A stretch of DNA of 40,160 bases, taken from a virus. The notes below the pieces were generated by a model. The model ran no database searches and was not told the DNA's origin. It was given only the letters and a program-made list of their open reading frames with translations. The DNA lies in IMG/VR virus record IMGVR_UViG_3300044846_003281, positions 1 to 40,160 of that record. One strand, written 5' to 3'. This document shows, piece after piece, positions 1,386-20,318 of the stretch. The stretch's first letter is position 1; each line of letters starts with the position of its first letter. The translations under genes were made by a program, and so were the position numbers.

Positions 1386-2736
1386 AACAATAATATTTGA
1401 TTTAGATGGAGTATTGGTTGAGGCCAAAGAAATTCATTATGAATCTTTAAATAAGGCATTAGGTAGTTATTCAATAACTTGGGATGAACACTTATCAATT
1501 TATGATGGTTTAAAAACAAATCAAAAATTAGATATGTTACACGAACGTAAAGGTTTACCTAAAGAACAATTCAAAGAAATTTGGGATAATAAACAAACTT
1601 ATACTTTACAATCTTTAAGGAATTTAAAATATAATACGGATTTAATTACAACAATGACTATGTTAGTTAATGAAGGTTATAAGTTGGCGGTGTGTTCTAA
1701 TAGTATTAGAAAAACTGTTTTAACGGTATTATCTAAGTTAGGGATTATTGAATTTTTTGATTTAATTTTATCTAATGAAGATGTTAAAAATTCAAAACCT
1801 CACCCCGAAATTTATTGGAAAGTGATATCTATGGTTGGGTGTTTACCTGAAGAAACTTTAATTGTTGAAGATTCTCCATATGGTTTACTTGCCGCGTCGA
1901 GAAGTAAATCTCACGTTTTTAGAGTAAAATCTCCAATTGAAGTTACTTATATTAACATAACAAAAAAAATATTAGAAATAAAATCAGGACATAATATGAT
2001 GACACCAAAATGGGAAGACCATAAAATGAACATTCTTATTCCAATGGCTGGAGCTGGGTCAAGATTTCAATTAGCCGGATATACATTTCCAAAACCACTT
2101 ATTGATGTAAATAATAAACCAATGATTCAAGTTGTTGTTGACAATTTAAACATTGATGCCAACTACATTTACGTGGTTCAAAAATCACATCGTGAAAAAT
2201 ATAACTTAGATACTTTATTAAATTTAATAACACCAAATTGTAAAATTGTTGAGGTTGATGGTATTACCGAAGGAGCTGCATGTACCGCTTTATTATCTAA
2301 AGAATTTATTAATAACGATTCTCCATTGTTTTTTGCTAATTCAGACCAATTTGTTGAATGGGATTCAAATGAATTTATGTATAAGATGAATGAGACTGAT
2401 GCGGATGGTGGTATAGTTACGTTTAAAGCCACTCACCCTAAATGGTCTTTTGTTAAAATAGATGAAACAGGATATGTTACTGAAGTGGCAGAGAAAAATC
2501 CAATTTCGGATAATGCAACTGTAGGGTTTTATTATTGGAAACATGGTTCTGATTTTGTAAAATATGCCGAACAAATGATTGAAAAAAATGTTAGGGTTAA
2601 TAATGAATTTTACGTTTGTCCTGTTTTTAATCAGGCGGTAGAAGACAATAAAAAAATAAGAGTTTATGAAGTTAAAAATATGTGGGGACTAGGAACTCCT
2701 GAAGATTTAAACTTTTATATTGAAAATAAAAAATAA
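1378..2736 (+). CDS. Bifunctional HAD phosphatase / sugar-phosphate nucleotidyltransferase
   Basis: Two domains are fused in 452 residues. Residues 1 to about 205 are a beta-phosphoglucomutase-like HAD phosphatase, with FDLDGVL (nucleophile D8, acid D10), a VCSNS motif II, the lysine of SKPHPEIY and VEDSPYG as motif IV. From about residue 218 a nucleotidyltransferase begins with NILIPMAGAGSRF, then PKPLIDVNNKPMI, EGAACTAL and FFANSDQFV, the signature of NTP-dependent sugar-phosphate uridylyl/cytidylyltransferases. The likely role is to make a nucleotide-activated sugar or polyol for the downstream transferases; the exact sugar cannot be read. An internal ATG at 2029 coincides with the start of the second domain and could allow separate synthesis. 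The gene overlaps the GDPD-like gene by 8 nt. Confidence 0.85.
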   Translation: MIKTIIFDLDGVLVEAKEIHYESLNKALGSYSITWDEHLSIYDGLKTNQKLDMLHERKGLPKEQFKEIWDNKQTYTLQSLRNLKYNTDLITTMTMLVNEGYKLAVCSNSIRKTVLTVLSKLGIIEFFDLILSNEDVKNSKPHPEIYWKVISMVGCLPEETLIVEDSPYGLLAASRSKSHVFRVKSPIEVTYINITKKILEIKSGHNMMTPKWEDHKMNILIPMAGAGSRFQLAGYTFPKPLIDVNNKPMIQVVVDNLNIDANYIYVVQKSHREKYNLDTLLNLITPNCKIVEVDGITEGAACTALLSKEFINNDSPLFFANSDQFVEWDSNEFMYKMNETDADGGIVTFKATHPKWSFVKIDETGYVTEVAEKNPISDNATVGFYYWKHGSDFVKYAEQMIEKNVRVNNEFYVCPVFNQAVEDNKKIRVYEVKNMWGLGTPEDLNFYIENKK

Positions 2737-2739
2737 ATT

Positions 2740-2886
2740 ATGAGATACCTTGATAAATATTGTAAGATATGGAGAGAGTTTCAAACTGATGAGATACCTT
2801 CTCATTTGGTTGTTTGGCCTGACTCAGAATCAAAAGAATGGTGTGATAGGTTAACAGCTCAATTAAATCATAATAACGTTAGTTAA
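2740..2886 (+). pseudogene. Duplicated C-terminal fragment of the GlcNAc-transferase gene (48-aa ORF)
   Basis: An ATG-to-TAA reading frame of 48 residues begins 3 nt after the HAD/nucleotidyltransferase stop and ends 7 nt before the next start. It is about 79% identical (38/48) to residues 267-314 of the first gene, keeping the core DKYCKIWREFQTDE and WCDRLT. Nothing corresponding to the catalytic domain is present. It is best read as a leftover from a duplication or recombination. Because the frame is intact, with some silent differences, a small expressed protein is possible. No promoter motif precedes it. Confidence 0.85.
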
Positions 2887-2893
2887 AAATAAA

Positions 2894-3499
2894 ATGGAAC
2901 AATATAATACGGATAAATACGCACATGGATTCATAGATGTTTACGAACCATATTTTAATGAAGTAAGTGATAGTAAACATATATTAGAGATTGGAGTATA
3001 TTATGGTGGAAGTCTTAAATACTTATCAGATAAATTTAAAGATGGTAACATTTACGGAATTGACATTGAGGATAAAACTCAATATGATGAAGAAAGAGTT
3101 AAAACATACATCGTTAATCAAGAAGATAGAGACTCTTTAAATGGTTTTTTAAAAGAAGTTGATGTTGAGTTTGATATAATTATTGATGATGGTGGTCACA
3201 CAATGAAACAACAACAAGTATCGTTTGGAATATTATTTAAAAGATTAAAGAAAGGTGGAATTTATATTTTAGAAGACTTACATACATCAAGAATAGAAAA
3301 TTTTGGGACTATTTTTCCCGATGATTTAATAACTACTTTAGATATGTTACAATCATTTAAATTTACTAACAACATTGCATCCAATCATATCTTAGACGAT
3401 GAAAAGGAATACATAAAAAATAATGTTGCCGATATTAGAATATGGTCTAAAACACCAGAATATAATCAAAGTGTTACATCAATAATAAAAAAGAAATAA
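2894..3499 (+). CDS. Class I SAM-dependent methyltransferase (TylF/macrocin O-methyltransferase-like)
   Basis: A 201-residue single-domain enzyme. SAM-binding motif I is HILEIGVYYGGSLKYL (about 29-45), followed by an acidic strand end GIDIED and then DIIIDDGGHTMKQQQVSF and GGIYILEDLHTS. The DDG-H motif and the following helix are typical of metal-dependent sugar O-methyltransferases related to TylF/MycE and of cephalosporin-hydroxylase-like proteins. It probably O-methylates a sugar assembled by the neighbouring transferases (inference). It is clearly paralogous to the N-terminal domain of the next gene, which shares the TDK opening, the IIIDDG-HT motif and the IEDLH/LEDLH strand. The leader is A-rich with no Shine-Dalgarno sequence. 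Confidence 0.85.
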   Translation: MEQYNTDKYAHGFIDVYEPYFNEVSDSKHILEIGVYYGGSLKYLSDKFKDGNIYGIDIEDKTQYDEERVKTYIVNQEDRDSLNGFLKEVDVEFDIIIDDGGHTMKQQQVSFGILFKRLKKGGIYILEDLHTSRIENFGTIFPDDLITTLDMLQSFKFTNNIASNHILDDEKEYIKNNVADIRIWSKTPEYNQSVTSIIKKK

Positions 3500-3510
3500 C
3501 TCATTAATTT

Positions 3511-4902
3511 ATGACACTAACAGAAATAGCAAATAGACTTGGTACTGATAAAGGAACCAAACATTTTGAATATCACTCTTATACCGAAACATATCAAGAA
3601 TTATTTTATCCATTAAAAGATGAAAAAATTAAGATGTTAGAAATAGGTGTTGCTGACCCAAGATTTCCTGGTGCTTCAATACAAATGTGGACCGAGTTCT
3701 TTTCAAATATTGATTTTATTGGCTTTGACATAAATCAAGATTGTAAAAAATATGAAAAAGAAAATGTTCGAATATTCATTGGAGACCAAAGTGTAACTGA
3801 GGATTTAAACCGATGTGTAAGTGAGTATGGAGGTAATTACGATATTATTATTGATGATGGACTTCACACCCATTTTCACCATATTAAAAGTTTTGAGACA
3901 TTATATCCTCATTTAAAAGAAAATGGGTTATACGTTATTGAGGATTTACATGCGTATGATTGTGTTAATACAATAGAATGGTTTAAAGAAAAAAATATAC
4001 CTTTTGAATTACATAATAACAACAAACTTTTAATTCATAGAAAACAAACAAAACCTCTTAATTTAATTTGGCAAACATTTAATGGAGACCAAACGACTTT
4101 TGAATTTGAATATACCACAGAATTTTTATTTAAAAATGTTGAACAAAACAGAATATTTGATGACGGTAAATTATCTACTGTTTTAGATAACTCTGTAATT
4201 ATTTATTCTAACAATTCAAATAACATATCTGATGACTTCAATAACTATTTAAACAAGTTTGTTGAACTAGGTTATACTTTTTATTTGTTACATTTCTCTA
4301 ACGAAAACTTAAGTCATAATTGTGACTATTATTCAAAGGCAAAAAATGTTTTTAGAAATTATTATGATTCAAATATTAGTGATGAAAATGTTACATTTAT
4401 TCCTTTAGGTGTAAAATCAGGATTTCTTAATAAGAATGAAAATTTGTCAAAAACAAAAGAGTATGTGTTTGCGTTTATCGGACAACCAAAATCAGATAGA
4501 CAAGAGTTATTGTCTGTGATTGAAAATATGGAAAATGTTTTTATACATAAAACAAATTCATGGAATTGTTCGACATCATTAACTCAAGACGAATGTATTT
4601 CAATTTACGGTAAAACAAAATTTGTTCCGTGTCCTATGGGATGGGTTCATCCTGACTCATTTAGATTGATGGAGTGTTTAGAATCAGGTTCAATACCAAT
4701 TTTAAAAAATTACAACAACTTAGAATATTTTACTAAAGTTTGGGGAGATTCTCCATTACCTGTAGTTAATTCTTGGAATGAAATTGTAAAATATTATAAT
4801 ATGGACAATAACCAATATAATGAATTACACAATAACGTATTTAATTGGTACTCAACCTTTAAAAGTAATTTGGATTTAAAAATTAAAAATAAATTAAATT
4901 AA
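3511..4902 (+). CDS. Fusion: TylF-like methyltransferase + exostosin-like glycosyltransferase
   Basis: Residues 1 to about 185 repeat the methyltransferase fold of the preceding gene, with MLEIGVADPRFPGASIQMW as motif I, IIIDDGLHTHFHHIKSF and YVIEDLHAYD. The C-terminal part (about 195-463) resembles exostosin/GT47-type GT-B domains: FAFIGQPKSDRQELL, then KFVPCPMGWVHPDSFRLMEC followed by LESGSIPIL, the usual nucleotide-sugar binding region. A protein that both methylates and transfers a sugar could cap a glycan chain in one step (inference). The middle (about 185-290) has no recognised signature. It lies 11 nt after the previous stop and 1 nt before the next start. Confidence 0.8.
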   Translation: MTLTEIANRLGTDKGTKHFEYHSYTETYQELFYPLKDEKIKMLEIGVADPRFPGASIQMWTEFFSNIDFIGFDINQDCKKYEKENVRIFIGDQSVTEDLNRCVSEYGGNYDIIIDDGLHTHFHHIKSFETLYPHLKENGLYVIEDLHAYDCVNTIEWFKEKNIPFELHNNNKLLIHRKQTKPLNLIWQTFNGDQTTFEFEYTTEFLFKNVEQNRIFDDGKLSTVLDNSVIIYSNNSNNISDDFNNYLNKFVELGYTFYLLHFSNENLSHNCDYYSKAKNVFRNYYDSNISDENVTFIPLGVKSGFLNKNENLSKTKEYVFAFIGQPKSDRQELLSVIENMENVFIHKTNSWNCSTSLTQDECISIYGKTKFVPCPMGWVHPDSFRLMECLESGSIPILKNYNNLEYFTKVWGDSPLPVVNSWNEIVKYYNMDNNQYNELHNNVFNWYSTFKSNLDLKIKNKLN

Positions 4903-4903
4903 T

Positions 4904-5650
4904 ATGAATAATTTTGACATTGGTATTACCACATTTTCATTACGATATGATTTTGTCGAGTCATTAGTAAAAAGTATTCGAACTTTAGGTGTTGATAATA
5001 ATATTTTTATATGCATTAATGGTGAAAAGGATTCAAACTTTTCTGAAGAATATAGACAAAAAATGTTATCACTATGTCTTAATTATAAAAATGTATTTCC
5101 AATATTTTTTGTTGAGACAAGAGGATTATCAAAGATGTGGAACACGTTATTAATACATTCAACTAAAGACGATTTATTAATATTGAATGATGATATTAAT
5201 GTTACTTCTGACAATATGTTTGAAGTTGTCTCTGGTCATATTAAATCTCCAGAATATTTTGGATTAAGTATTATTAACAACACATTCTCATTTTTTGTTG
5301 TTAACAAAAAATTTGTTGATGAGTTAGGATATTTTGATGAACGATTAATTGGATTTGGGGAAGAAGATGGTGATATTATGTATCGGTTAAATAAACAAAA
5401 GGGAAAAAAAGTTTTCAGATTACATGCAGGAGGTCTTGAAAATATTATTTCAAATATAAGACATGAACATATAAAAAGTGGAGTTGGCAAATACTCTTTT
5501 TTTAATAGGAATTATATCTTTAACCAAAAATATAAATGTAATGGAGACATATATTATTTCCCTGAAGATATAGAATGTGAACAACTATTAGAAGACATAC
5601 AACTATATCCATACGAAAGATTTTTTATGGAAAATAAAGAAAATTTATAG
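4904..5650 (+). CDS. GT-A glycosyltransferase (family 2 / galactosyltransferase-like)
   Basis: 248 residues. The N-terminus has the GT-A start IGITTFSLRYDFVESLVKSI; LLILNDDINVT supplies the DxD-type metal site near residue 95; and YFDERLIGFGEEDGDIMYRL (about 142-162) matches the C-terminal galactosyltransferase/chondroitin-synthase-type motif F-G-x-E-D-x-D. The enzyme should transfer a sugar from a nucleotide donor with retention of the GT-A fold. It shares this E-D-G-D motif with the gene at 8040. Its stop codon overlaps the GTG start of the next gene by one base. Confidence 0.8.
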   Translation: MNNFDIGITTFSLRYDFVESLVKSIRTLGVDNNIFICINGEKDSNFSEEYRQKMLSLCLNYKNVFPIFFVETRGLSKMWNTLLIHSTKDDLLILNDDINVTSDNMFEVVSGHIKSPEYFGLSIINNTFSFFVVNKKFVDELGYFDERLIGFGEEDGDIMYRLNKQKGKKVFRLHAGGLENIISNIRHEHIKSGVGKYSFFNRNYIFNQKYKCNGDIYYFPEDIECEQLLEDIQLYPYERFFMENKENL

Positions 5651-6501
5651 TGGAAAGTAAAATAGTTAATAAAAGTGAATTATTTTATGAAACAAAATAT
5701 GGTAATTCAAATATAAACGAATATTACCAATATATTCTTAATGGTATTATTTTGTTTTTAACAAAAAATAATGTTCCCTATTCAATTAATTTTGGGTGTA
5801 ATAATATATCAAAAGATGTTAATTTAAACTTTCAATATGAACACACCATTACTAATAATGGTGATGGTACTTATTCTTGTGAGGTGTATAGATTTGAAGA
5901 ATTAATTAAATTAGAATCAGTTTTTGAGTACTCAAACTCAAATATAAATAACATAAAAATATCTAACCATTTTAAAGAATATTCAGATATTTTTCGGTAT
6001 TATCCTCCATTAATTTATGATATTAGTGATATAGATAATATTGGTAATAGGGTTAAAAATTGTTTAACAATTCATAGTTCAACTCCAAGAAGGAATAATA
6101 TCCATCAAAAAGTTGATATGGATTATTTTCATAATGCGTGTGGAGGTAGTGTTATGTATTCTAAAGATATTATTAAAAGTGTTATGGATGACTATAAAGT
6201 ATTAGTTAATATACACCAAACAGACAAATATTGTACTTTAGAAGAATTAAGAGTTTTACCCGCTTTAATGACAGGTATATTAGTTATTAGTGAAGAATCT
6301 CCATATAAAGAACATATTCCATACCATGAACATATTATATGGTCTTCATATGATAAGATGGTTGAAACCATAAATAACGTTTTAGAGAATTACAATTTTT
6401 TTAGACAAAAATATTTAACTAATTTAAATTTAACGTTAAAAAAAATGAAAGATGATTCGGACAATGAAATGTCTTTAATTTTTAAAAATTACATAGTATG
6501 A
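5650..6501 (+). CDS. Putative glycosyltransferase (exostosin/GT-B-like C-terminus), GTG start
   Basis: 283 residues starting at a GTG that overlaps the previous TAG by one base; no nearby ATG would keep the full frame. The first half is not recognised. The second half carries VLVNIHQTDKYCTLEELRVL, then PALMTGILVISEESPYKE and IPYHEHIIWSSYD. I associate this with GT-B-type transferases found in phages and large DNA viruses: a conserved E-E-x-R-x-x-P-A stretch followed by a G-x-x-V-I-S-E donor-binding strand. It probably acts on the same glycan as its neighbours. The last codons overlap the next gene by 4 nt. Confidence 0.65.
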   Translation: MESKIVNKSELFYETKYGNSNINEYYQYILNGIILFLTKNNVPYSINFGCNNISKDVNLNFQYEHTITNNGDGTYSCEVYRFEELIKLESVFEYSNSNINNIKISNHFKEYSDIFRYYPPLIYDISDIDNIGNRVKNCLTIHSSTPRRNNIHQKVDMDYFHNACGGSVMYSKDIIKSVMDDYKVLVNIHQTDKYCTLEELRVLPALMTGILVISEESPYKEHIPYHEHIIWSSYDKMVETINNVLENYNFFRQKYLTNLNLTLKKMKDDSDNEMSLIFKNYIV

Positions 6502-7097
6502 TACATTTTATTACCCCTCTTTATCGATATAATAATTTAAAGGTGATATACTCAACAATTAAACATCAAGTTGATGATTTTAATTGGCATTTAATCGAGG
6601 GTAGTAATACCATTGGAGAAGATGATTTTAGTTTTTTAAAAGAAGATGATAGAGTTAAATTTTATAAGATAGACACTTCACATATTTGGGGTCACGAACA
6701 AAGAAATTATTTTATCACCGATATACCTGTAGATGATAATGATTGGTGTTATTTTTTAGACGACGATAATGTTGTTACTTGGGATTTAATTTCAACATAT
6801 AATGAAGAAAAAAATTCTAATGTTGATTTAGTTTTATTTTCACAAAAAGCGGGTTTGACTGAAAAAATTAGATTGTACGGTGATGGTGAACATAGATTTA
6901 ATTTAGGTCTTTGTGATATTGCATCGTTCATGATGAGATATCGTATGATAAAAAAAACATACATACATAATATTTCTTATAGGAATGCCGATGGTCATTA
7001 CGCCTTAGACATTAGACAACTTAAAAATGAACATGTTTTTAAATATTGTCCTGATAAATTTGTAAGATATAATAGCCTATCTATGGAGATTGTATAA
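6498..7097 (+). CDS. GT-A-type glycosyltransferase, small
   Basis: 199 residues. The opening FITPLYRYNNLKVIYSTIK is the first beta strand and nucleotide-binding loop of family 2-like transferases. WCYFLDDDNVVT (about 76-87) is the DxD metal site at the expected distance. The rest, with LFSQKAGL and a YRNADGHYALDI stretch, resembles small viral and bacterial GT-A proteins that lack the second half of the domain. It overlaps the previous gene by 4 nt (ATGA), typical of translational coupling. Donor and acceptor are unknown. Confidence 0.75.
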   Translation: MIHFITPLYRYNNLKVIYSTIKHQVDDFNWHLIEGSNTIGEDDFSFLKEDDRVKFYKIDTSHIWGHEQRNYFITDIPVDDNDWCYFLDDDNVVTWDLISTYNEEKNSNVDLVLFSQKAGLTEKIRLYGDGEHRFNLGLCDIASFMMRYRMIKKTYIHNISYRNADGHYALDIRQLKNEHVFKYCPDKFVRYNSLSMEIV

Positions 7098-7111
7098 TTA
7101 AAAAAAATAAT

Positions 7112-8047
7112 ATGATTAAAATAAAATTAGAATGTTGGTGGACCGATGCATTGTCACTAAATTCAAGAATGATTAGACAATTTGTACCGAGTGCAGATTT
7201 AACAGAGTATTCTTTTGTTACTGAAAATCCGGACTATACAATAGTATTTGGTAGAACCGATTGGGACAAAATTGAAACCCAAAAAGAAAAAACTTTTTAT
7301 GTCTCACAGGAACCTTTATGGTCCCCAAATCAACCAAAAGATGGGATACACGATTACTGTTCAAAAATATTAATATCTGATAAATTAGAGTATCCTGATA
7401 GAGAAGAATACATAGAAACATTATTACCAATGTTTTATGCGGGTCGAGGAGAAAATGACCATAGAGAAGAATGGGATTGGTCTTCTAAATTAAAAGATAA
7501 AGACTATTCAAAAAACAAGTCAGTTTCAATCATAATTAGAAAAGACACTTATAGTCATTACAATCATTTACAGAATCCAAATACTAATAAAATAAATTAT
7601 GAAGAAAGAACCAATTTAGGTATTGAATTATCTAAAGATAACAGGATTGATGTTTACGGAACTTATTGGGTATCTAATGGTGAAAATATTAAAGGAGAGG
7701 TTTGGAACAAACATGTTGGTCTTGATGACTATAAATTTTCCGTGGCTTGTGAAAACACCATTCAAAAAAATTATATTAGTGAAAAATTTTGGGATGCAGT
7801 TTTAACAAACACAATCCCAATTTATTTAGGATGTTCCAACATTAATGAATTAATACCTGATAATTGTTATATCTCTATTAATAACATGACTATGGATGAA
7901 ATGGTTAATAAAGTTAAGTCTATAGTGGATAACGAATCAAACCTATATGAACAATACTATGACAACATAAAAAAATTAAAAAAAGATTTTTTCATAAATC
8001 CTAAATATAATATTTGGGAAAGAATTAAATTACTAATAAATGAATAG
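7112..8047 (+). CDS. GT10 fucosyltransferase-like glycosyltransferase
   Basis: 311 residues. The region 208-240 carries the hallmark of family GT10 alpha-1,3/4-fucosyltransferases: KFSVACENTIQKNYISEKFW followed by DAVLTNTIPIYLG. This corresponds to the family pattern with FEN, the Y-x-(T/S)-E-K core and P-(V/I)-x-x-G, which bind GDP-fucose. A preceding VYGTYW (about 181-186) matches the conserved V-D-x-Y-G strand. The N-terminal acceptor domain is shorter than in eukaryotic enzymes but similar to bacterial ones. GDP-fucose would have to come from the host or from genes outside the window. It overlaps the next gene by 8 nt. Confidence 0.85.
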   Translation: MIKIKLECWWTDALSLNSRMIRQFVPSADLTEYSFVTENPDYTIVFGRTDWDKIETQKEKTFYVSQEPLWSPNQPKDGIHDYCSKILISDKLEYPDREEYIETLLPMFYAGRGENDHREEWDWSSKLKDKDYSKNKSVSIIIRKDTYSHYNHLQNPNTNKINYEERTNLGIELSKDNRIDVYGTYWVSNGENIKGEVWNKHVGLDDYKFSVACENTIQKNYISEKFWDAVLTNTIPIYLGCSNINELIPDNCYISINNMTMDEMVNKVKSIVDNESNLYEQYYDNIKKLKKDFFINPKYNIWERIKLLINE

Positions 8048-8759
8048 TATTTCATTAAACATGAAATTTTGGGATGATGGTCAACCCGACTCAACCAGAA
8101 TAAGAAATGTTAATTTTTCTTGGAAGGAATTAAAAAAATTGTCAAGTTATCTTAACTTAAACGATATTACCGTTGAATCGTCTTTATATGATTTTTCACC
8201 AGAGCAAATAATTTCAGATTCAATTCACATTTCATATCCTTTAGGTGTTTATAAAAAATCAGAAAAAACTAACATAATTCTAAAGGATAAACAAAACTAT
8301 GATTTTTTTATGGTAATTGATTGTGATGCTTTCTTCCATGAACAAGATTACGAAAAACTTTTGGAATTAATTAAATCTTTAGATAAAGGAGATGTTTGTA
8401 CTTTTGATTTAGCAAAATTAAATGACAATGTTTCTGATTATATTATTGATGATAAATTTATTATTGAAAAGGCGGATTGGTCTTATGCATATTCAGGAGC
8501 CAAAGAAAATGGTCCATTAAGACATCATACCGGTGGATTAGGTGGTGTTTACATTTCCGATACTAATTTATTAACATCTTTGGGTGGGTTTGATGAAAAG
8601 TATGTTGGGTGGGGTGCAGAAGATGGAGATATGATGGGTAGAATTTACTATTCAAAAATCCAACATAAAATTAAACCAACAAATAATTTTGCTCCATTTC
8701 ATTTACCACATTTTTCAGATTGGGGAAATGAAAAATATAATAAAAGATTTAATGAATAG
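8040..8759 (+). CDS. GT-A glycosyltransferase with galactosyltransferase-type C-terminal motif
   Basis: 239 residues. DFFMVIDCDAFFHEQDYEKL (about 90-110) gives the DxD motif. LGGFDEKYVGWGAEDGDMMG matches the beta-4-galactosyltransferase / Glyco_transf_7C signature G-W-G-x-E-D-x-D, and the closing PFHLPHFSDWGNEKYN fits the metal-binding His region of that family. The N-terminus is compact. It is probably a retained paralog of the GT-A gene at 4904, with which it shares the E-D-G-D motif but little else by eye. The start overlaps the GT10 gene by 8 nt. Confidence 0.8.
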   Translation: MNSISLNMKFWDDGQPDSTRIRNVNFSWKELKKLSSYLNLNDITVESSLYDFSPEQIISDSIHISYPLGVYKKSEKTNIILKDKQNYDFFMVIDCDAFFHEQDYEKLLELIKSLDKGDVCTFDLAKLNDNVSDYIIDDKFIIEKADWSYAYSGAKENGPLRHHTGGLGGVYISDTNLLTSLGGFDEKYVGWGAEDGDMMGRIYYSKIQHKIKPTNNFAPFHLPHFSDWGNEKYNKRFNE

Positions 8760-8762
8760 AAG

Positions 8763-9644
8763 ATGAAAAAAATTAAAATTATTACGGCAATATACACAAA
8801 ATTAAATGGAACTGAATTAGGTGGTAGACATAGTCGTGAAGGACATTATAGATGGAGTTTATTATCATTATTAAAAATGAATGATGCTGATTTTATATGT
8901 TATACTTCCGAAGAAGAATTAAATAGTTTAGAACAATTTTTCTACGATGAAAATAATGTTAGTCGAGATAAATTACAATTTTCCGTGTTTAATTTACACA
9001 ATAATGAATTTTCTAAACTTATCGGTAAATATAAGGATATCGAAGGAATTAAAGTGGGGGATAGATGTATTGAGATTCAATATATGAAATTTATTTGGTT
9101 TTTATCTGAAGATATGTCTTACGATTATTATTTTTGGATTGACGCGGGATTATCACACTGTGGTTTAATACCTGACAAATATTTAATACCGGGAGGACCT
9201 CACAATAAAGGTTATTATGAGAGTTCATTATTTAATAATAAATTCTTGGAAAACTTAATGGTTAATACTGGAGACAAATTTACATTAATTGGAAAAGAAA
9301 ATGATAGAAACTATTGGTCTGGAACAGTAAACCCAATTCATTTTACCGAATATAATAGAATGATTCATATTATAGGTGGTATTTTTGGTGGTAAAAAAGA
9401 AATATGGAAACCAATTGTTGACTTATTTAGAGATTATGTTTATAAAGTTTCTGAACACGATAATAGATTATACCATGAAGAAGATATTATGACATTAATG
9501 TTTAGAAATCATCCCGAATTATTTTACAATTATTATTTTGAAACTTGGTGGCACGAGAATGAAAGAATGACTGGTATAGATATGGTGGAACACGTAAAAA
9601 ACAATAAAAGCTTTTATAAAATATTAGAAGAATTAAATGAATAA
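8763..9644 (+). CDS. HtrL/YibB-like protein, putative glycosyltransferase
   Basis: 293 residues resembling the HtrL_YibB family (WlaTC/HtrL), known from LPS and capsule loci but without a well-defined reaction. Visible family features are the opening IITAIYTKLNGTELGGRHSR, MKFIWFLSEDMSYDYYFWID with AGLSHCGLIP, and a late HIIGGIFGGKKEIW motif. The FWIDAG strand resembles a GT-A donor site with a single acidic pair. It lies 3 nt after the previous stop and overlaps the next gene by 8 nt; the next gene begins with a related domain, so the two are tandem paralogs. Confidence 0.75.
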   Translation: MKKIKIITAIYTKLNGTELGGRHSREGHYRWSLLSLLKMNDADFICYTSEEELNSLEQFFYDENNVSRDKLQFSVFNLHNNEFSKLIGKYKDIEGIKVGDRCIEIQYMKFIWFLSEDMSYDYYFWIDAGLSHCGLIPDKYLIPGGPHNKGYYESSLFNNKFLENLMVNTGDKFTLIGKENDRNYWSGTVNPIHFTEYNRMIHIIGGIFGGKKEIWKPIVDLFRDYVYKVSEHDNRLYHEEDIMTLMFRNHPELFYNYYFETWWHENERMTGIDMVEHVKNNKSFYKILEELNE

Positions 9645-11313
9645 AATAACATTAGTAACCGGTATTTGGGATATCGGAAGGGGGGATTTATCTGAAGGAT
9701 GGTCAAGACCATTTCAACACTATTTAGATAAATTTGAACAATTATTAAAAGTTGAAGAAAATTTAATAATTTTTGGTGAAGATGAACTTGAAAAATTTGT
9801 ATTTGAAAGACGAAGTCCTGAAAATACACAATTTATTAGTAGACCATTATCTTGGTTTCAAGACAATGAATTTTTTAAAAACATTCAAAAAATAAGAACT
9901 AATGAAGATTGGTTAAATCGAGCTGGGTGGTTAAGAGAGTCAACTCAAGCAAGATTGGAAAACTATAATCCACTTGTTATGTCTAAAGTTTTCCTATTAA
10001 ATGATGCCAAGATTATGGATAAATTTAATTCGGAATATATGTTTTGGATTGATGGTGGTTTAACAAATACGGTTCATTCGGGATATTTTACTCACGATAA
10101 AGTTTTAGATAAATTATCAAAATACATTTCAAAATTTTCATTTGTTTGTTTCCCGTATGACGCTGAAACTGAAATTCACGGATTTGAATATAATAGGTTA
10201 AATGATATTGCGGGTGACAAAGTTAATAAAGTTGCTCGTGGTGGTTTTTTTGGTGGACCAAAACACACAATAGGTGACATTAACGGAATTTATTATAATT
10301 TATTACAATCTACATTAAATGAAGGTCTTATGGGTACTGAAGAATCTATATTCAGTATTATGTGTTATAAACATTCTGACATTATTGATTATTTTGAAAT
10401 TGATTCAAATGGATTGATTGGTAAATTTTTTGAAAATTTAAAGAACGACGAACTTAAACTTAAGTCTGAAAATATTCATAAAAGTGAAAATAATTTGGAT
10501 ATAAATAAAGTTGGTTTATATGTAATAACATTTAATAGTCCGAATCAATTTAGGACACTAATTGATTCTATGATTGCCTACGATAAAGATTACATATATA
10601 AGACAAAAAAGTTTTTATTAGATAATTCAAGTGATTTGTCAACTACCGAGGAATACTCGGTAATTTGTGAAGAGTATGGTTTTGAACACATTAAAAAAGA
10701 TAATTTAGGTATTTGTGGTGGTCGTCAATGGATTGCAGAACATTTTCAAAATGAAACAGATTTAGATTTTTATTTGTTTTTTGAAGATGATATGTTCTTT
10801 TATCCAAACGAAGGTAAAGTATGTAGAAACGGATTTAATAGATATGTTCCAAATTTATATTCAAAAACATTACAGATTGTTAAGAAAGAAAATTTTGATT
10901 TTCTTAAACTTAATTTTAGTGAATTTTTTGGTGATAATGGAACTCAATGGGCTTGGTATAATGTACCACAACATATTAGAGAAAAATATTGGCCAGGTAA
11001 GAATAGACTACCTCAACAAGGATTAGACCCCAACGCTCCAAAGGCATTATATGATTCTGTAAGAACATTTCAAGGAATTCCTTATGTCACGGGTGACGTT
11101 TATTATTGTAATTGGCCTCAGATTGTAACCAGAACAGGTAATCAAAAAATGTTTTTAGATACAACTTGGGGGCATCCATTCGAGCAAACTTGGATGAGTC
11201 ATATGTATCAGTTGGTTAAAGAGGGTAATTTATATCCTGGTTTATTACTTATGACACCGACCGAACACGATAGATTTGAACATTACGAAAGAGGGCTAAG
11301 AAAAGAGTCATAA
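9637..11313 (+). CDS. Fusion: HtrL/YibB-like domain + GT-A glycosyltransferase
   Basis: 558 residues in two parts. Residues 1 to about 280 repeat the HtrL/YibB-like fold of the preceding gene: the LVTGIWDIGRGDLSEGWSRP opening, YMFWIDGGLTNTVHSGYF and GGFFGGPKHTI. From about 290, VGLYVITFNSPNQFRTLIDS starts a family 2-like GT-A domain, with GICGGRQWIAEHF and the metal site YLFFEDDMFFYP near residue 382. It ends with a HPFEQTWMSHMYQLVKEG region. This is the last gene of the glycan cassette; its TAA opens an 8-bp inverted repeat (11311-11330) that reaches the next start codon. Confidence 0.8.
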   Translation: MNKITLVTGIWDIGRGDLSEGWSRPFQHYLDKFEQLLKVEENLIIFGEDELEKFVFERRSPENTQFISRPLSWFQDNEFFKNIQKIRTNEDWLNRAGWLRESTQARLENYNPLVMSKVFLLNDAKIMDKFNSEYMFWIDGGLTNTVHSGYFTHDKVLDKLSKYISKFSFVCFPYDAETEIHGFEYNRLNDIAGDKVNKVARGGFFGGPKHTIGDINGIYYNLLQSTLNEGLMGTEESIFSIMCYKHSDIIDYFEIDSNGLIGKFFENLKNDELKLKSENIHKSENNLDINKVGLYVITFNSPNQFRTLIDSMIAYDKDYIYKTKKFLLDNSSDLSTTEEYSVICEEYGFEHIKKDNLGICGGRQWIAEHFQNETDLDFYLFFEDDMFFYPNEGKVCRNGFNRYVPNLYSKTLQIVKKENFDFLKLNFSEFFGDNGTQWAWYNVPQHIREKYWPGKNRLPQQGLDPNAPKALYDSVRTFQGIPYVTGDVYYCNWPQIVTRTGNQKMFLDTTWGHPFEQTWMSHMYQLVKEGNLYPGLLLMTPTEHDRFEHYERGLRKES

Positions 11314-14861: not shown

Positions 14862-15986
14862 TTATATTACGTATATTTGTCGAGGCATTGCTCTAAATTT
14901 CATTTGTTTATTTAAGTTTTCAGCAATTAATGCTTCTCGCTCCATTACTTTTTCAGGTCTTAATCTTGTTAACCAACCTTCAGCACCTGTTAATTCTTCC
15001 ATTAACTTAGACTTTTCATCTTTTGCTTCTGTTAAAAGACTTGTATAATCCATTGTTATTTCCGAATCAGGTGTTTTCAAATTACCACTATATTTTCCCC
15101 TAACTCTTGCTAATGTTTCTTTAACATATGCGGTGAACCATCTTCTAACCCATTGTTTAGCTGGAACATTTAAGTCCGACCAAGTAAGTTCTTCTAATGG
15201 AACATCTGAAGGTAATTTAATAACATCTGGGTTATTCTTTAAACAATCTGCTCTACTATCAGGACCAACATCATAATACCAATACCATACGGCTTTACCT
15301 ACGTAATCACTATATTGGTTCCAGTTAAATCTTCCACCGGGAGTATTGTATAAGAATACATTTCTTTTACCATCAGGTAAACCTGTAATTCTATATGTAA
15401 GTGAACCACCTAAGATACGATTCAAGATATTTGCTTCTTGCATTCTTATTAGGTAATCAAAACCTGACATCATAAAATAAGAACCTTGATAACCTGCTTG
15501 AGCAAAACCTGCTTCATTGGCACCTAAACCGACACCACCAAAACCACCAGCCATACCACCTAATCCAAATGCCGAAAAAGATTGATTACTGAACCATAAA
15601 AGTTCGTTAACCTCTCTACCTGCAGGTATTTCATAGTTTTGAGTATTAGCACTTAATATGAAATAGTCTTTCTTTAGAACCCAAGGACCAACGGTTTGTA
15701 AACCAACAATTTTAGAATAAGAATAACTGAATTGTTGTTCAAAATCCATTGTTTTAGTAATCAAAGCGTTCGCCACAGATTTCTCCGTCATATTTAAATT
15801 TACTAAGTTAACCCATTGACTATCGATTAACCATTGTAAAATATATTCTTCATAATCTTGAATAGATAGTTCCATTAAAGAATCCATCATTTCATCTTCA
15901 ACTTCAACACTTCTAATTGGAGCACCTAATAAGTGCTTTACTCGTGTGTATATTTTACTTCTTTCCGGTTCTGGTATTACTGACAT
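14862..15986 (-). CDS. Neck protein, T4 gp13-like (head completion)
   Basis: 374 residues. The N-terminal helical part (VKHLLGAPIRSVEVEDEMMD, then SIQDYEEYILQWLIDSQW) and the C-terminal WVRRWFTAYVKETLARVRGK, then MDYTSLLTEAKDEKSKLMEE and LRPEKVMEREALI resemble gp13-type neck proteins of large T4-like phages, which close the filled head and receive the tail. A Gly/Ala/Phe-rich insert (SAFGLGGMAGGFGGVGLGAN) near residues 135-155 is unusual and probably a flexible loop. It is encoded opposite to the gp14-like gene, which lies about 3.4 kb away. The identification rests on overall pattern, not on a sharp motif. Confidence 0.6.
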   Translation of the reverse strand: MSVIPEPERSKIYTRVKHLLGAPIRSVEVEDEMMDSLMELSIQDYEEYILQWLIDSQWVNLVNLNMTEKSVANALITKTMDFEQQFSYSYSKIVGLQTVGPWVLKKDYFILSANTQNYEIPAGREVNELLWFSNQSFSAFGLGGMAGGFGGVGLGANEAGFAQAGYQGSYFMMSGFDYLIRMQEANILNRILGGSLTYRITGLPDGKRNVFLYNTPGGRFNWNQYSDYVGKAVWYWYYDVGPDSRADCLKNNPDVIKLPSDVPLEELTWSDLNVPAKQWVRRWFTAYVKETLARVRGKYSGNLKTPDSEITMDYTSLLTEAKDEKSKLMEELTGAEGWLTRLRPEKVMEREALIAENLNKQMKFRAMPRQIYVI

Positions 15987-16010: not shown

Positions 16011-17543
16011 TTATTGTATATTGTAAACTAATGAATCTGTTGAAAAAACAAAATTACCATTAACAATTTTTGGTTTTTTATTAAAAATTAAAACACTTCT
16101 TCCTTTTTGAAAAATCATTAAATCAGTTTTGTATACACTTACAGCTGCGGTTCCTTTGAGTGTTATTTTGTCATCATCAAGTATCATTTCTCTATATGGT
16201 TTTATTTGACCTGTTAATGTTTTACCATCTTTAGTTATTTCAATATCAATACCACCTATAGCATCTTTTTTACTACCCGGTTCACCAATCAAAGTTACGT
16301 TAACTTTATTACCAAAAAATCTTTTTAAGATTGCAGCTGTAATTTCTTCTCTTTTTGCTCCCGCATCATTTTTTTCGGTAAGTGTTCTCATTAAGTTTAA
16401 GAACGTAGAACTTTCAGTATCGAATATTCTAAATTTATAATCATTTAAAGCATTGATAAATCTTTTTGTTTCTATTTTTTGAGCAAAAGGATTTTTATCT
16501 TTAAAATTAATAATATCTTCATTTGTTTTTGACTTTATTACGACATTTAAGTCTTGTAATAAAATACAAAATGCTGTGTAATTTGTGTTTAGTTTATTAA
16601 TTACAGACCTACCAGTTCCTTCTAAATCATAAAAACCAGGTAATTGGTCTCTTTCAGGTTTTTCAATAAATTTTTCACTAAAAACATCTCTCAAAATACT
16701 ATCAATACCATCTCTATAAGTCCATTTAACTTCAGGAACGGTATTAAATAAGTTTCTATAAAATTCATTTTCTTTTGATGAACACATTTCAGATTTACCT
16801 TCACTTAAAATTTGTTTCATTTTTTGAGATTCCATTAATTTTGTTTGGGTTTTCATTTCGTACATTTTGGTTACGAAATCCCAATTTACAACACCCCAAA
16901 AATTTGTGATGTATTCATCTCTTTTATTTTTGTATTTCAGATAATATGCGTGTTCCCATAAGTCCAAACCTAAAAGTGGAAATCCACCATTTTCAATTAC
17001 GTTCATTAACGGATTGTCTTGATTTGGAAGTGTCATAATTTTCAAGGTATTACTTGAAGTAAGGACTAACCACACCCAACCTGAACCGAATCTTTCCTTG
17101 GCAATTTTTTCAAATTCTTTTTTGAATTTTGTAAAAGTTCCGTATTGTTTTGTGATTTTTTTATATAACTCACCAGTTAATCTTTGTGGTGTTGGTGTTA
17201 GCATATTCCAAAACAATGCGTGGTTAAATGCTCCACCGGCATTATTTCTTATATCTTTATCGAAACGACTAATTGTTCTAATAATCTTTTCTAAGTCTAA
17301 GTCCCCTTGTTTTTTCTTAGATAGTGCGTTGTTTAATTTGTCTACGTAACCTTTATAGTGTTTGTTGTAGTGAACATTCATTGTCTCTGGGTCAATGAAG
17401 TTTTTGAGGGCTGAGTAAGAATAGGGTAATTTCTCTATTCCAATTTTTTTCATTTCAGAAATTAAAACTTTTTTTCCTGTTTCAACTTTTTCGTTTACTA
17501 TTTGTTTTTCAAGTTTCTGAATTTTTTCTTGTATTTTTTTCAT
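16011..17543 (-). CDS. Superoxide dismutase (Mn/Fe family) fused to a putative PD-(D/E)XK nuclease domain
   Basis: 510 residues. After a short charged coiled-coil-like leader (1-35), residues 38-230 form a complete Fe/Mn superoxide dismutase: LPYSYSAL, VHYNKHYKGYV (ligand H58, H62), NNAGGAFNHALFWNML (ligand H108), GSGWVWLV and LDLWEHAYYLKY (ligands D194, H198). Gly104 and Gln175 (PNQDNPL) are the pair typical of Mn-type enzymes. The enzyme converts superoxide to peroxide. Residues 240-510 are an extension not normally found in SOD. Within it, AKREEITAAILKRFFG (E399/E400), GGIDIEI (D433) and GKTLTGQIKPY (Q446, K448) resemble the Mrr-like D-x(n)-Q-x-K nuclease core. The gene lies between the helicase and neck genes with its own promoter motif. 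SOD domain very sure; nuclease domain tentative. Confidence 0.92.
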   Translation of the reverse strand: MKKIQEKIQKLEKQIVNEKVETGKKVLISEMKKIGIEKLPYSYSALKNFIDPETMNVHYNKHYKGYVDKLNNALSKKKQGDLDLEKIIRTISRFDKDIRNNAGGAFNHALFWNMLTPTPQRLTGELYKKITKQYGTFTKFKKEFEKIAKERFGSGWVWLVLTSSNTLKIMTLPNQDNPLMNVIENGGFPLLGLDLWEHAYYLKYKNKRDEYITNFWGVVNWDFVTKMYEMKTQTKLMESQKMKQILSEGKSEMCSSKENEFYRNLFNTVPEVKWTYRDGIDSILRDVFSEKFIEKPERDQLPGFYDLEGTGRSVINKLNTNYTAFCILLQDLNVVIKSKTNEDIINFKDKNPFAQKIETKRFINALNDYKFRIFDTESSTFLNLMRTLTEKNDAGAKREEITAAILKRFFGNKVNVTLIGEPGSKKDAIGGIDIEITKDGKTLTGQIKPYREMILDDDKITLKGTAAVSVYKTDLMIFQKGRSVLIFNKKPKIVNGNFVFSTDSLVYNIQ

Positions 17544-17584: not shown

Positions 17585-19336
17585 TTAATATCGCAGTTGA
17601 TTTATTTTTTGTAAGATTTCTTCGGCTGCGTCCGTTGTTATTTGATTGTCACCCATAACTGTTGCGATGACTTGTTTTTTATTATTTAAGATATCATAAA
17701 TGACACCTTCGATTGTGTTTTCAAATATTGGATAATAAACCAATACATTATTTTTTTGACCATATCGGTATGCTCGGTCTTCCGCTTGGGCGTGGTCTGA
17801 GGGTAAAAATGATAGGTCATTCATAATAACAGCTTCTGCTGAGGTTAAAGTAATACCAACACCTGCCGCTTTAATATTTCCAACAAAAACCTTAACTTTT
17901 GGATTATCTTGAAATTCATCAACACTTCTTTGTCTTTCAGGTTTTGACATTGACCCGTCAAGTTTTACTGCCGATTTTCCAAAGTGTTCAATAATTTTAT
18001 TTAATGAATCAGTAAAATTACAAAAGATAATTACTTTTTTATCTTGTTCGATGATGTTCTCAGCAATTTCAATTGTTTGTGATATTTTTTCATCGGCAAT
18101 AATCTGTCTAACTTTTGTGAGCTTTGAAAATTGAACCGTTAATGATTTTGATTCGTCAGGATTTTTATCATACCAATCATAATATTCACCCATAACTTCT
18201 TCATAGTTTTTTGATTTTAATCTCAAATAAACTGGTGTAATAATTTTATCGGGTAAATCCAAAACATTTTCTTTTAATCTTCTTAAAATTGTTGATGCCG
18301 TTCTTTCCCTTAACTCGTCCAAGTTCGACGCTCCGGTGATGTTCCATATCTTTCTACCACCGACATTGAATTGATAACCCTGACAATACCTAATTGCGTA
18401 TGCCATCCAATTTTTGGACACGGGACTATCCACCAAACTTAATAAGTTAAAATAATCCATCGGTCTTGATGTCATTGGAGTTCCCGTTAATAACCAAAGT
18501 CGGTCAACGGTTTTAACCAAATCATTAATTAACTTTGTTCTTTGAGCTTGTCCATTTTTAATATAATGGGCTTCATCAACAATAACCAAATCAAAATTTG
18601 CTTTAAGAATTTCCGAATCATCTTTTTTCTTTGGGTCGTGGAAGTTTTTTATAATATCATAGTTGATGATAACAAAATCGGCATCCGTACTAAAATTTTT
18701 ACCTTCAGCAATATAAATTGATTTGTCGGAATAATTTTCAATTTCTCGTTTCCAGTTAATCTTTAATGTTGCAGGACAAATAATTAAAACTTTCTTTGAG
18801 TTTGCTTCCAACGCAGCAATAATTGTTGATGTGGTTTTTCCCAAACCCATATCATCCGCCAAAATAAATTTCTTATTTTCAACCAATTTTTGGACAGCTT
18901 CTTTTTGATGTTCAAGTGGTGGACGATTAGAATATTTGTCATAATTGATAACAACATCTTTAACCGTGTTGTCTTTTATGACCGCAGCTTTTGGTAACCA
19001 AAAATCGTGAAATTCTTCTGTTTCTTTTATCTTTCCCCAAATATGAAACGCCTTTTCTTTTTCTGCCAATAACTTTTCCACCCAAACTTTTTCAGGTACT
19101 TCGGTCATTAACTTATCGTCGGCCAATTTCTGTGCGAAGTATGCGTCCAAGATAACCCACTTTCTTGCTACCTTTGGTTGTTTATCGTGGAAGTTAATGA
19201 TATACTCGGATTGACTCCGAGTTGGGTAAAATTTCTTATTTAACTTTGATTTTTTCTTTAACACCAAAAGGTAATTATTACCACCCTCATATGTTTCAAG
19301 AATCGTCATTGCTTTTGATTCTAAACTTATTTCCAT
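17585..19336 (-). CDS. SNF2-family helicase/translocase (SMARCAL1/ZRANB3-like)
   Basis: 583 residues. All core motifs are present: LEHQKEAV (Q-motif region), Walker A ADDMGLGKTTS (K167), Walker B IVDEAHYIKN (DEAH 254-257), motif III LLTGTPMTS (283-287), then the second RecA domain with IIFCNFTDSLNKII, LDGSMSKPERQ, AGVGITLTSA and motif VI EDRAYRYGQ (521-527). The DEAH box with the R-x-x-R-x-G-Q ending is specific to SNF2 proteins. Cellular relatives of this compact type remodel forks and anneal DNA, and T4 uses UvsW for a similar job, so a role in replication restart or recombination is likely (inference). The N-terminal 130 residues are not recognised. It is divergent from the gp14-like gene across 56 bp. 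Confidence 0.92.
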   Translation of the reverse strand: MEISLESKAMTILETYEGGNNYLLVLKKKSKLNKKFYPTRSQSEYIINFHDKQPKVARKWVILDAYFAQKLADDKLMTEVPEKVWVEKLLAEKEKAFHIWGKIKETEEFHDFWLPKAAVIKDNTVKDVVINYDKYSNRPPLEHQKEAVQKLVENKKFILADDMGLGKTTSTIIAALEANSKKVLIICPATLKINWKREIENYSDKSIYIAEGKNFSTDADFVIINYDIIKNFHDPKKKDDSEILKANFDLVIVDEAHYIKNGQAQRTKLINDLVKTVDRLWLLTGTPMTSRPMDYFNLLSLVDSPVSKNWMAYAIRYCQGYQFNVGGRKIWNITGASNLDELRERTASTILRRLKENVLDLPDKIITPVYLRLKSKNYEEVMGEYYDWYDKNPDESKSLTVQFSKLTKVRQIIADEKISQTIEIAENIIEQDKKVIIFCNFTDSLNKIIEHFGKSAVKLDGSMSKPERQRSVDEFQDNPKVKVFVGNIKAAGVGITLTSAEAVIMNDLSFLPSDHAQAEDRAYRYGQKNNVLVYYPIFENTIEGVIYDILNNKKQVIATVMGDNQITTDAAEEILQKINQLRY

Positions 19337-19392: not shown

Positions 19393-19905
19393 ATGCAGAA
19401 ATTAGTTCCAATAACAAGGTTAGGTAAGTTCTTCGGTGGTGAAGACTACGAGTTAGACGTGGGTATGGGTCAAGAGTGGTTAGAAGGTGATATGAACTTT
19501 ACCGTCGTATTATATCGTATTGACAGATATAAAACAAAAACTGATGCGGTTTATGGTGAGGTTCTTGAAGATGGTGTTCAATTTATGGCACCTATTGAAT
19601 TAAAAGGATTAGTTCAAGTTATGGCACCAACCAATAAATTTTTAGGTACATCAAGAGTTGAACAACAAGAACCAGGTAATATGAAATTTTCACTTTATCA
19701 AAAACAACTTGATGATTTGGGTATTGAAATATTCATGGGTGACTACATTGGTTATTATGAAACTGAAGACCGAGTTAGATACTATTCAGTTAGTGATGAC
19801 GGATATGTTAGGTCCGACAACAAACATACATATGGTGGTTACAAACCATTCTATAGAACGATTATTGGAACGTACGTAAGTGAAAACGAATTTAGGGGAT
19901 TATAA
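19393..19905 (+). CDS. Neck protein, T4 gp14-like
   Basis: 170 residues. The order of features matches gp14-type neck proteins by eye: an early DAVYGEVLEDGVQF segment (T4: YGED), IELKGLVQVMAP, a central GNMKFSLYQKQLDDLGIEIF, then the GDYIGYYETEDRVRYYSVSD strand and a final FYRTIIGTYVSENEF. In T4, gp13 and gp14 together form the collar between head and tail. It starts a three-gene operon that overlaps the following gene by 1 nt (TAATG). The protein is shorter than T4 gp14 (256). No single motif proves the assignment. Confidence 0.5.
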   Translation: MQKLVPITRLGKFFGGEDYELDVGMGQEWLEGDMNFTVVLYRIDRYKTKTDAVYGEVLEDGVQFMAPIELKGLVQVMAPTNKFLGTSRVEQQEPGNMKFSLYQKQLDDLGIEIFMGDYIGYYETEDRVRYYSVSDDGYVRSDNKHTYGGYKPFYRTIIGTYVSENEFRGL

Positions 19906-20318
19906 TGAAAGTATTGATAACCGAATCACAATTTGATTCTTTGTTTATTGGTAAAAAAGTTATGGTATATTATAATTTACATAAACATACTTTTTCAATA
20001 ACTTATAACAATAAAGTAATTATGCATGCGGATTACGTTAAATTGGGTGATGTTGAATTTAGAGTTAGACCCGGTGGAAAAGATAGAGTTAGAAAAGAAA
20101 AAAGCAAAAATGTTCACGCATTTGTAATTGGAAAATTATTAGAATATTGTGAATATCCTTGTGAAGATTTACCTGTCACAAATTCTAATAAAATTGTGAC
20201 ATATGACCCATATAGATTTAACACTTTTGTTTATAAAAATAGTGAAGAACCAATATATGGGGCAAATGAAGTTGATATGATAAATTCAACTAATAAAATA
20301 TTTGTAGTAAAAAAATAA
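19905..20318 (+). CDS. Unknown phage protein between neck and tail-completion genes
   Basis: 137 residues, not assigned to a family. It begins KVLITESQFDSLF and has a basic, beta-rich core (KVMVYYNLHKHTFSI, VEFRVRPGGKDRVRKEKSKN) followed by a HAFVIGKLLEY helix. The dense Lys/Arg patch at about 60-75 could bind nucleic acid, but no known motif is present. It overlaps the gp14-like gene by one base, and 1 nt separates it from the next start, so it belongs to the same operon and may take part in head-tail joining. Confidence 0.7.
   Translation: MKVLITESQFDSLFIGKKVMVYYNLHKHTFSITYNNKVIMHADYVKLGDVEFRVRPGGKDRVRKEKSKNVHAFVIGKLLEYCEYPCEDLPVTNSNKIVTYDPYRFNTFVYKNSEEPIYGANEVDMINSTNKIFVVKK

Follow-up and report, generated by a model that had tools for sequence, protein, structure and literature searches.

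A superoxide dismutase-nuclease fusion gene in an uncultured phage, with a proposed role as head-targeted cargo

The fusion gene and its two halves

The stretch of DNA analysed here covers positions 1 to 40,160 of the IMG/VR virus record IMGVR_UViG_3300044846_003281 and is called, at its full length of 40,160 nucleotides, the window. It encodes a protein in which a superoxide dismutase (SOD) is joined to a nuclease-like C-terminal half (Table 1). Pfam and PHROGs matches to a tail sheath, a head-tail adaptor, a helicase and a DNA polymerase in the window place the gene in a phage setting. An original prediction, made from the sequence alone, had described this open reading frame (ORF) as an SOD fused to a putative restriction-type nuclease. 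Its coordinates and residue numbers are correct, and the ORF lies on the minus strand.

Relatives were collected from IMG/VR. The scan with the whole protein confirmed 171, of which the best 80 loci were kept, and the scan with the C-terminal half alone confirmed at least 403, of which the best 80 contributed 79 new locus identifiers (at least one, L082, comes from a contig already sampled). Both halves are present in all 159 loci and in the window copy, so the fusion is not an assembly artefact. It is real and old. Identity in the first alignment of relatives extends down to 49%, and the search for the same fusion in related genomes, proposed with the original prediction, gave 151 distinct SOD-nuclease ORFs, three of them truncated or split. 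Motif and conservation counts refer to the 152 of 160 ORFs that are near full length, reduced to 114 distinct sequences and then to 51 at below 90% identity (nr90).

The SOD half is displayed by consecutive Pfam matches to Sod_Fe_N at residues 37-115 (1e-22, 80.8 bits; cut-off 27) and Sod_Fe_C at residues 123-226 (5.1e-39, 132.9 bits; cut-off 20.9). In the PDB, its top matches are mostly MnSODs (E 1.9e-57). The Mn-type signature expected to be intact is indeed so: the metal ligands H58, H108, D194 and H198 and the pair G104 and Q175 are invariant in 114/114 distinct near-full-length sequences. When 263 ORFs were screened for SOD motifs by regular expression, 15 stood out; 13 of these differ at positions other than the ligands, and two are parts of a single frame-broken copy (L300). 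The protein thus shares with the Fe/Mn SOD family a full-length domain, all four ligands and the Mn-type Gly/Gln pair, and differs from it by the added phage leader and nuclease half; it is 44-46% identical to ordinary bacterial SODs. The closest cellular SODs found, among 26 loci retrieved with two peptide patterns, belong to Ignavibacteria, Fluviicola and Apibacter (47-50% identity), which fits a Bacteroidota host without establishing one. Several phage-collection matches (H1-H9 and H12-H14) are ordinary bacterial SODs, two of them in Salmonella whole-genome contigs, and by title and identity these records look like host contigs filed as phages.

The C-terminal half was modelled alone from 35 sequences with a predicted local distance difference test score (pLDDT) of 90.5 and a predicted template modelling score (pTM) of 0.84. 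In a Foldseek search of the PDB, the top rows were I-Ssp6803I and Hjc resolvases, with a best E of 3.8e-3 and none at or below 0.001. VIA-align ranked an Hjc chain first (Z 8.3, 100 residues, root-mean-square deviation 3.6), with 53 of 998 chains at Z >=5 and 2 of 998 at Z >=8; this tool re-ranks Foldseek's own matches, folds absent from its list prove nothing, and by its own notes a Z below 8 may reflect just a common arrangement. The scores are modest and the top rows converge on one fold, and the matches cover only the last ~115 residues of this half. By predicted fold, these residues are a PD-(D/E)XK nuclease. The motifs named in the original prediction are present and the fold is borne out by structure prediction and fold search; the more specific assignment to Mrr-type enzymes found no support, the nearest solved folds being Hjc-type Holliday-junction resolvases and I-Ssp6803I.

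In the model, E399 lies in a long helix, D433 at the start of a strand and Q446-x-K448 on the next strand. The proximity of D433 to Q446 and K448, on which the nuclease assignment had been made to depend, is reflected in neighbouring strands of one hairpin (434-438 and 441-449), as read from secondary structure. Among 147 distinct closed ORFs that contain this nuclease (hereafter type A) in fused or stand-alone form, 144 retain E399, D427, D433, Q446 and K448. The three exceptions (L190, L226, L238) are truncated or split and do not contain the catalytic stretch. Q446 occupies the position before xK where D or E is usual, a departure from the motif that names the family. Core topology and the E...D...QxK layout resemble the Hjc branch. 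Differences from Hjc lie in the low identity (~14%), the glutamine in place of the usual acid, and the ~140 mostly helical residues that precede the core. The kinship to archaeal Hjc resolvases suggested by the model is that of a fold neighbour only, and a common fold does not establish the substrate.

Sequence searches placed this half in no known family. Nothing exceeded the cut-off in Pfam (best DUF6602, E 0.01) or PHROGs, PDB sequence and profile searches gave no convincing match, and PADLOC returned none for the window's nuclease. Of 139 pattern matches in a genome scan based on the C-terminal alignment, none was confirmed as a bacterial or archaeal relative. Distant stand-alone matches at 24-25% identity occur in three huge-phage records, two of a 735-kb phage (L161; E 1e-4) and one of a 634-kb phage (L162; E 1e-2). 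The latter protein has a leader with I-K-E at its start, and a viral scan with it confirmed 0 relatives among 8 pattern matches.

Annotated phage records covering 80% of the fusion protein were not found. Among the papers listed by a literature search, with subscription papers and preprints mostly uncovered, none dealt with an SOD-nuclease fusion or a phage-head SOD, judging by title and start of abstract. The nuclease half is matched by the predicted structure of BFVD entry A0A6J5L953 ('superoxide dismutase', uncultured Caudovirales phage, 501 residues; E 1e-22, TMq 0.86); therefore, such a protein is already in UniProt, named for its SOD only.

Table 1. Coordinates of the SOD-nuclease ORF, its parts and its neighbours in the window
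Feature	Position	Strand	Basis
SOD-nuclease ORF, 510 residues	16011..17543	-	ATG start; read 17543→16011
N-terminal leader, residues 1-30, ending I28-S29-E30 (candidate prohead-protease site)	17454..17543	-	[IL]xE at E30; low pLDDT
Fe/Mn (Mn-type) superoxide dismutase domain, residues 36-230	16854..17438	-	Pfam and PDB matches; ligands H58, H108, D194, H198
Linker, residues 231-249, two candidate prohead-protease sites	16797..16853	-	Motif counts, column counts, low pLDDT
Linker candidate site L236-M237-E238	16830-16838	-	49/51 nr90 sequences
Linker candidate site L246-S247-E248	16800-16808	-	50/51 nr90 sequences
C-terminal half, residues 250-510: mostly helical part and predicted PD-(D/E)XK core (last ~115 residues)	16014..16796	-	Model, fold search, conservation
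Nuclease-core E399	16347-16349	-	Conserved, predicted catalytic residue
Nuclease-core D433	16245-16247	-	Conserved, predicted catalytic residue
Nuclease-core Q446-x-K448	16200-16208	-	Conserved, predicted catalytic residues
Upstream neighbour: SNF2-type helicase	17585..19336	-	Pfam, PHROGs
Downstream neighbour: head-tail adaptor (neck) protein	14862..15986	-	phrog_211, 7e-11

Motifs at domain borders and exchange of payloads

Internal head proteins are best known from phage T4, where such cargo consists of separate gene products. The T4 prohead protease gp21 recognises L/I-X-E and cuts after it, and in IPIII the ten N-terminal residues are enough for targeting to the T4 head (available text of PMC9026906). 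In the fusion protein, (L/I)-x-E stands at the borders of the SOD and nuclease domains, at E30 in 47 of 51 nr90 sequences and still more often at E238 and E248 (Table 1). The model has pLDDT below 50 at residues 15-32 and 235-249, in or near these sites. Within the linker, the hydrophobic residue at -2 and the glutamate of both motifs are nearly fixed and most other columns vary; conservation also extends to K250, S251 and C254, where the nuclease half begins.

This arrangement extends to relatives with other payloads, which were sorted into types B to E. At least one (L/I)-x-E occurs in 185 of 187 distinct linkers, compared with 7-36%, depending on class, of same-length windows within domains. 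Two or more motifs are found in 102/112 linkers between SOD and the type-A nuclease (mean 16.4 and maximum 30 in 300 shuffles, the control used also for the next two classes), in 32/33 between SOD and type C (mean 4.5, maximum 11) and in 26/30 between SOD and type B (mean 5.5, maximum 14). The same holds for 2/2 SOD-to-D linkers and the single E-to-C linker; the length filter of this count excluded one SOD-to-D and one C-to-B linker. In relatives with an additional N-terminal domain (the HEWxH domain described below), all 69 linkers to SOD carry at least two copies of the looser [ILM]xE, a raw count taken without shuffling.

Payloads encoded as separate genes also begin with such segments. A motif-holding leader precedes 14 of 15 distinct stand-alone ORFs, counted by eye and without a control of their own; the 15 are type A in L196, L200, L223 and L231, type B in L385, type C in L191, L196, L328, L329, L334 and L340, type D in L192 and L194, and type E in L272 and L273. 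Fragments, copies and ORFs with an unseen start were omitted, which removed L008, L013, L190, L211, a type C of L385 and repeats. A tblastn search of phage records with one 24-residue leader gave no match, perhaps owing to the short query.

Payload exchange was assessed at loci fetched by the neck gene, of which the best 80 of at least 593 were taken. According to tblastn of the stretch beside that gene, 36 loci contain both SOD and the type-A nuclease, 39 contain SOD but no type A, 3 contain the nuclease but no SOD, and 2 contain neither; of this last pair, L189 has no room and L211 contains type-C ORFs by profile search. Among the 39, SOD stands alone in 19, is fused to types B, C, D or E in 18, and is followed by a truncated type A in 2 (L226, L238). 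The SOD-only proteins stop at about the start of the linker in 16 of 19 loci, and L213, L229 and L242 retain a linker stub.

A wider collection of 363 loci includes some repeats of one contig, and the counts therefore refer to distinct ORFs; they are biased by the five seeds used (whole protein, C-terminus, neck, type C and type B), each of which, except type B, kept at most its best 80 loci. SOD with type A accounts for 151 ORFs, SOD-C for 44, SOD-B for 35 and SOD alone for 19. Rarer combinations are SOD-C-D (4), SOD-E-C (4), SOD-D (3, one apparently with an undetected C), SOD-C-B (2) and SOD-E (1). An N-terminal domain with a zinc-protease-like HEW(V/I)H motif and no Pfam match over the cut-off precedes SOD in 91 distinct ORFs (for example L202:617-1021 and L218:2039-2338), including 39 of the SOD-C, all SOD-B and 10 of the SOD-only ORFs (one of these ten a frame-broken piece). 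It accompanies payloads B, C, D, E or none, and never the type-A nuclease (0/151).

Profile comparison relates type C distantly to the type-A nuclease, with an hhalign probability of 91.9 (E 7e-7) and the catalytic residues aligned. Types B and D showed no relation to type A in hhalign and are for that reason not called nucleases, and an E...D...S-x-K pattern was noted by eye in type B. For types C and B, searching PDB profiles produced chance matches only. In L223, L227 and L228, which are identical here, the two enzymes are encoded by abutting genes, SOD first, and the nuclease gene opens with its own leader ending in L-N-E. A neck-protein tree of 127 rows displays at least 30 changes of cargo state, and an SOD-only locus (L198) and an SOD-C locus (L221) are starred sisters on it. 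The tree is a quick one, with rows thinned within cargo classes and states read from possibly incomplete loci, so that contigs stopping early could mimic cargo loss. Because SOD is the steadier module and its partner is swapped, fused or split off, the locus appears to act as a cartridge for delivered enzymes.

Further proteins may belong to the same category. Three proteins of the large related record G001 (L174:5382, L175:5705 and L175:6638) diverge downstream and have in common an N-terminal MKK(I/V)xxLTE(S/T)D... segment and a second (L/I)-x-E; this segment is possibly a general head-targeting leader of the clade. In L008 and L013, minus-strand ORFs of ~495 residues start with a leader MKFRITE and contain a Cys-rich, zinc-finger-like stretch; their C-terminal domain matches the type-A nuclease profile (L008) or the type-C profile (L013), and their sequences suggest that they are likely another cargo. 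In an uncultured marine phage, a 1113-residue protein (BFVD entry A0A8D9CCA0) includes a domain predicted to share the fold of the nuclease half (TMq 0.81, 20% identity) and is perhaps another multi-cargo chain.

Head machinery in relatives and a proposed cargo polyprotein

Related phages encode components of a T4-type head. Peptidase_S77, the gp21 type of protease, exceeds the cut-off in 6 of 17 larger related records chosen. In G001, the genes for terminase, portal, protease and a gp23-type capsid protein form one cluster, and a long acidic protein is encoded between those of the protease and the capsid protein. T4 has its scaffold gene at that place. The capsid protein of six related records carries L-I-N-E followed by A near residue 60. 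At the same site, the isolate Microcystis phage Mel-JY01 has L-I-S-E and then A, and Flavobacterium phage immuto has I-V-S-E and then A, which is not strictly (L/I)-x-E. These two phages are the only annotated ones whose records match the neck protein (5 records; E 2e-8 and 2e-6). In Mel-JY01, a ribosomal protein S21 gene lies near the prohead protease (L261, PP395634.1, 2499-2726); S21 genes near head genes, on the opposite strand, have been described in lake phages of Bacteroidetes (available text of PMC9723584).

We propose, with a probability of about 0.7, that the ORF encodes a modular head-targeted cargo polyprotein of a T4-type myovirus, matured into an SOD and a nuclease. The proposal builds on the computed fusion, ligand and catalytic conservation, nuclease fold, motif placement and payload swapping, together with the protease and capsid site of relatives. 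Of the three roles suggested in the original prediction, that of a virion-carried enzyme is now best supported, as each domain is bordered by (L/I)-x-E prohead-protease motifs; nothing in this analysis supports a redox-sensing nuclease. Packaging, cleavage and injection, as well as both enzyme activities and their targets, would take the following course. The ~30-residue leader and the linker would serve as targeting tags ending in (L/I)-x-E, with which the polyprotein would join the prohead core. A gp21-type prohead protease would then cut after E30, E238 and E248, leaving a free Mn-type SOD (~31-238) and a free PD-(D/E)XK nuclease (~249-510) in the mature head. With the linker cut, SOD and nuclease need not work as one enzyme. 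Both would enter the host together with the phage DNA, where SOD could clear superoxide from the surroundings of the incoming or packaged genome and the nuclease could act on host, plasmid, rival-phage or branched DNA.

Parallels with the T4 internal head proteins IPI-III and Alt include the short leader ending in (L/I)-x-E, a T4-type protease and gp23-type capsid protein in the window's relatives, a fast-changing cargo and its likely delivery into the host. Unlike the separate gene products of T4, the polyproteins described here appear to chain several enzymes with candidate cut sites between them, with SOD and nuclease as cargo and SOD as the steadier module. A packaged viral SOD has a precedent in PBCV-1, whose Cu/Zn SOD A245R is thought to lower superoxide in infected cells; hosts of PBCV-1 have less superoxide than those infected with a relative that lacks the SOD gene (PMC7019647, available text). 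Both viruses would thus carry an SOD in the virion, as far as packaging may be assumed for the window phage. A245R differs in belonging to another SOD family and to a eukaryotic algal virus, and the available text mentions no nuclease partner.

Several observations weigh against this proposal. In 11 of the 17 records, all of unstated completeness, Peptidase_S77 was not detected, and the window was not searched for it. The motif (L/I)-x-E is short, charged helices often contain it, and folded regions have it too, at E197 in the SOD signature (48/51) and at E390 (34/51); for this reason the motif alone does not define a cut site. Some linkers do not follow the two-motif pattern: none of the three SOD-to-E linkers has two motifs (all three have one), C-to-D linkers have two in 1/3, and C-to-B linkers have any motif in 1/2 and two in 0/1. 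No strict motif is present in the leader of the stand-alone nuclease of L231, and the nuclease of the 735-kb phage has no clear leader. Over the 171 called ORFs of one large relative, enrichment of the motif at positions 2-16 is modest (56/2565 vs 593/47334, Fisher p 1e-4; followed by S, 9/2565 vs 37/47334, p 5e-4). Finally, an active nuclease in the head would need restraint from the phage's own DNA. A packaged nuclease is not impossible, since the T4 head can carry a foreign nuclease that acts after calcium addition (PMC3012670, available text).

A fuller version of the proposal is tentative, and we hold it at somewhat below even odds. The locus would be an exchangeable cargo cartridge that brings an antioxidant enzyme and varied nucleases or other payloads (in relatives, also an HExxH domain) into the capsid at a fixed ratio, and this enzyme kit, injected before phage expression, would neutralise superoxide and attack DNA.

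A finer form of the cargo proposal, in which the injected enzymes are a weapon against the host or against superinfecting phages and SOD guards the injected genome from a superoxide-based or damage-triggered response, is conceivable and, in our judgement, rather unlikely. It draws on the same evidence for delivery, and host oxidative-stress genes are reported to affect infection by a Campylobacter phage, with parent and escape phage behaving alike on a sodB mutant (PMC8540345, available text). Set against this, the window's nuclease is without a PADLOC match.

An improbable alternative is that the protein remains uncut in the infected cell as a two-domain auxiliary enzyme. SOD would spare DNA from superoxide, the nuclease would act on host or branched replicating DNA, and the linker would be kept merely as a helix between domains. 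Single-domain SOD-like genes outside fusion-type loci, in Vibrio phage 2.275 (189 residues) and PA5oct (182 residues), are in line with this idea. The PA5oct protein bears the tag 'ESI-MS/MS' in its database record, and the available text of PMC6950013 (on phage PA5oct) and of PMC9875498 does not mention a phage SOD. In further keeping with the two-domain reading, the SNF2 helicase gene adjoins the fusion in 130 of 134 loci with room (it lies 0.9 to 1.7 kb away in L097, L098, L100 and L139), the linker is modelled as a low-confidence helix, and the nuclease fold is closest to junction resolvases. A mere spacer does not explain why the -2 hydrophobic residue and the glutamate of each motif are among the most conserved linker positions while most others vary, nor why the same motifs precede unrelated payloads and recur in the leaders of stand-alone ones. 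Moreover, L223, L227 and L228 encode the two enzymes separately, which makes a single chain dispensable.

T4 endonuclease VII trims branched DNA during packaging. A corresponding factor of head or neck morphogenesis, with an Hjc-like nuclease trimming branched DNA at the portal and SOD as a passenger or a protector of DNA in stored virions, would suit the neck gene's adjacency in 143/143 loci with room and the nearest folds (Hjc, Z 8.3; I-Ssp6803I, E 3.8e-3), but is very improbable given that a common fold leaves the substrate unspecified and that 39 of 80 neck-gene loci have SOD without detectable type A (two of them with truncated copies), which would be odd for a packaging part.

If the cargo polyprotein proposal is true, several enzymes per chain with sites for the maturation protease would represent a new mode of virion loading in a wide clade of uncultured phages. 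A leader or linker ending in (L/I)-x-E would then provide a reading rule for recognising delivered proteins among unknown phage genes. Should SOD arrive with the genome, superoxide would become a directly testable factor in early phage infection, and the natural split, fused and swapped versions offer ready-made comparisons.

Other genes in the window

Two further parts of the window are of interest. On the plus strand, positions 19905-20318 encode a 137-residue protein that matches Pfam Phage_L5_gp82 (2e-28) and starts with MKVLITE-SQ, a leader like those of some stand-alone payloads. Beside the DNA polymerase gene, at 951-11313 (+), glycosyltransferase- and methyltransferase-like genes, identified by eye, lie in a row that includes an HAD/nucleotidyltransferase fusion and a protein with an HtrL_YibB domain (7.6e-20). 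A role of this gene run in sugar modification is possible.

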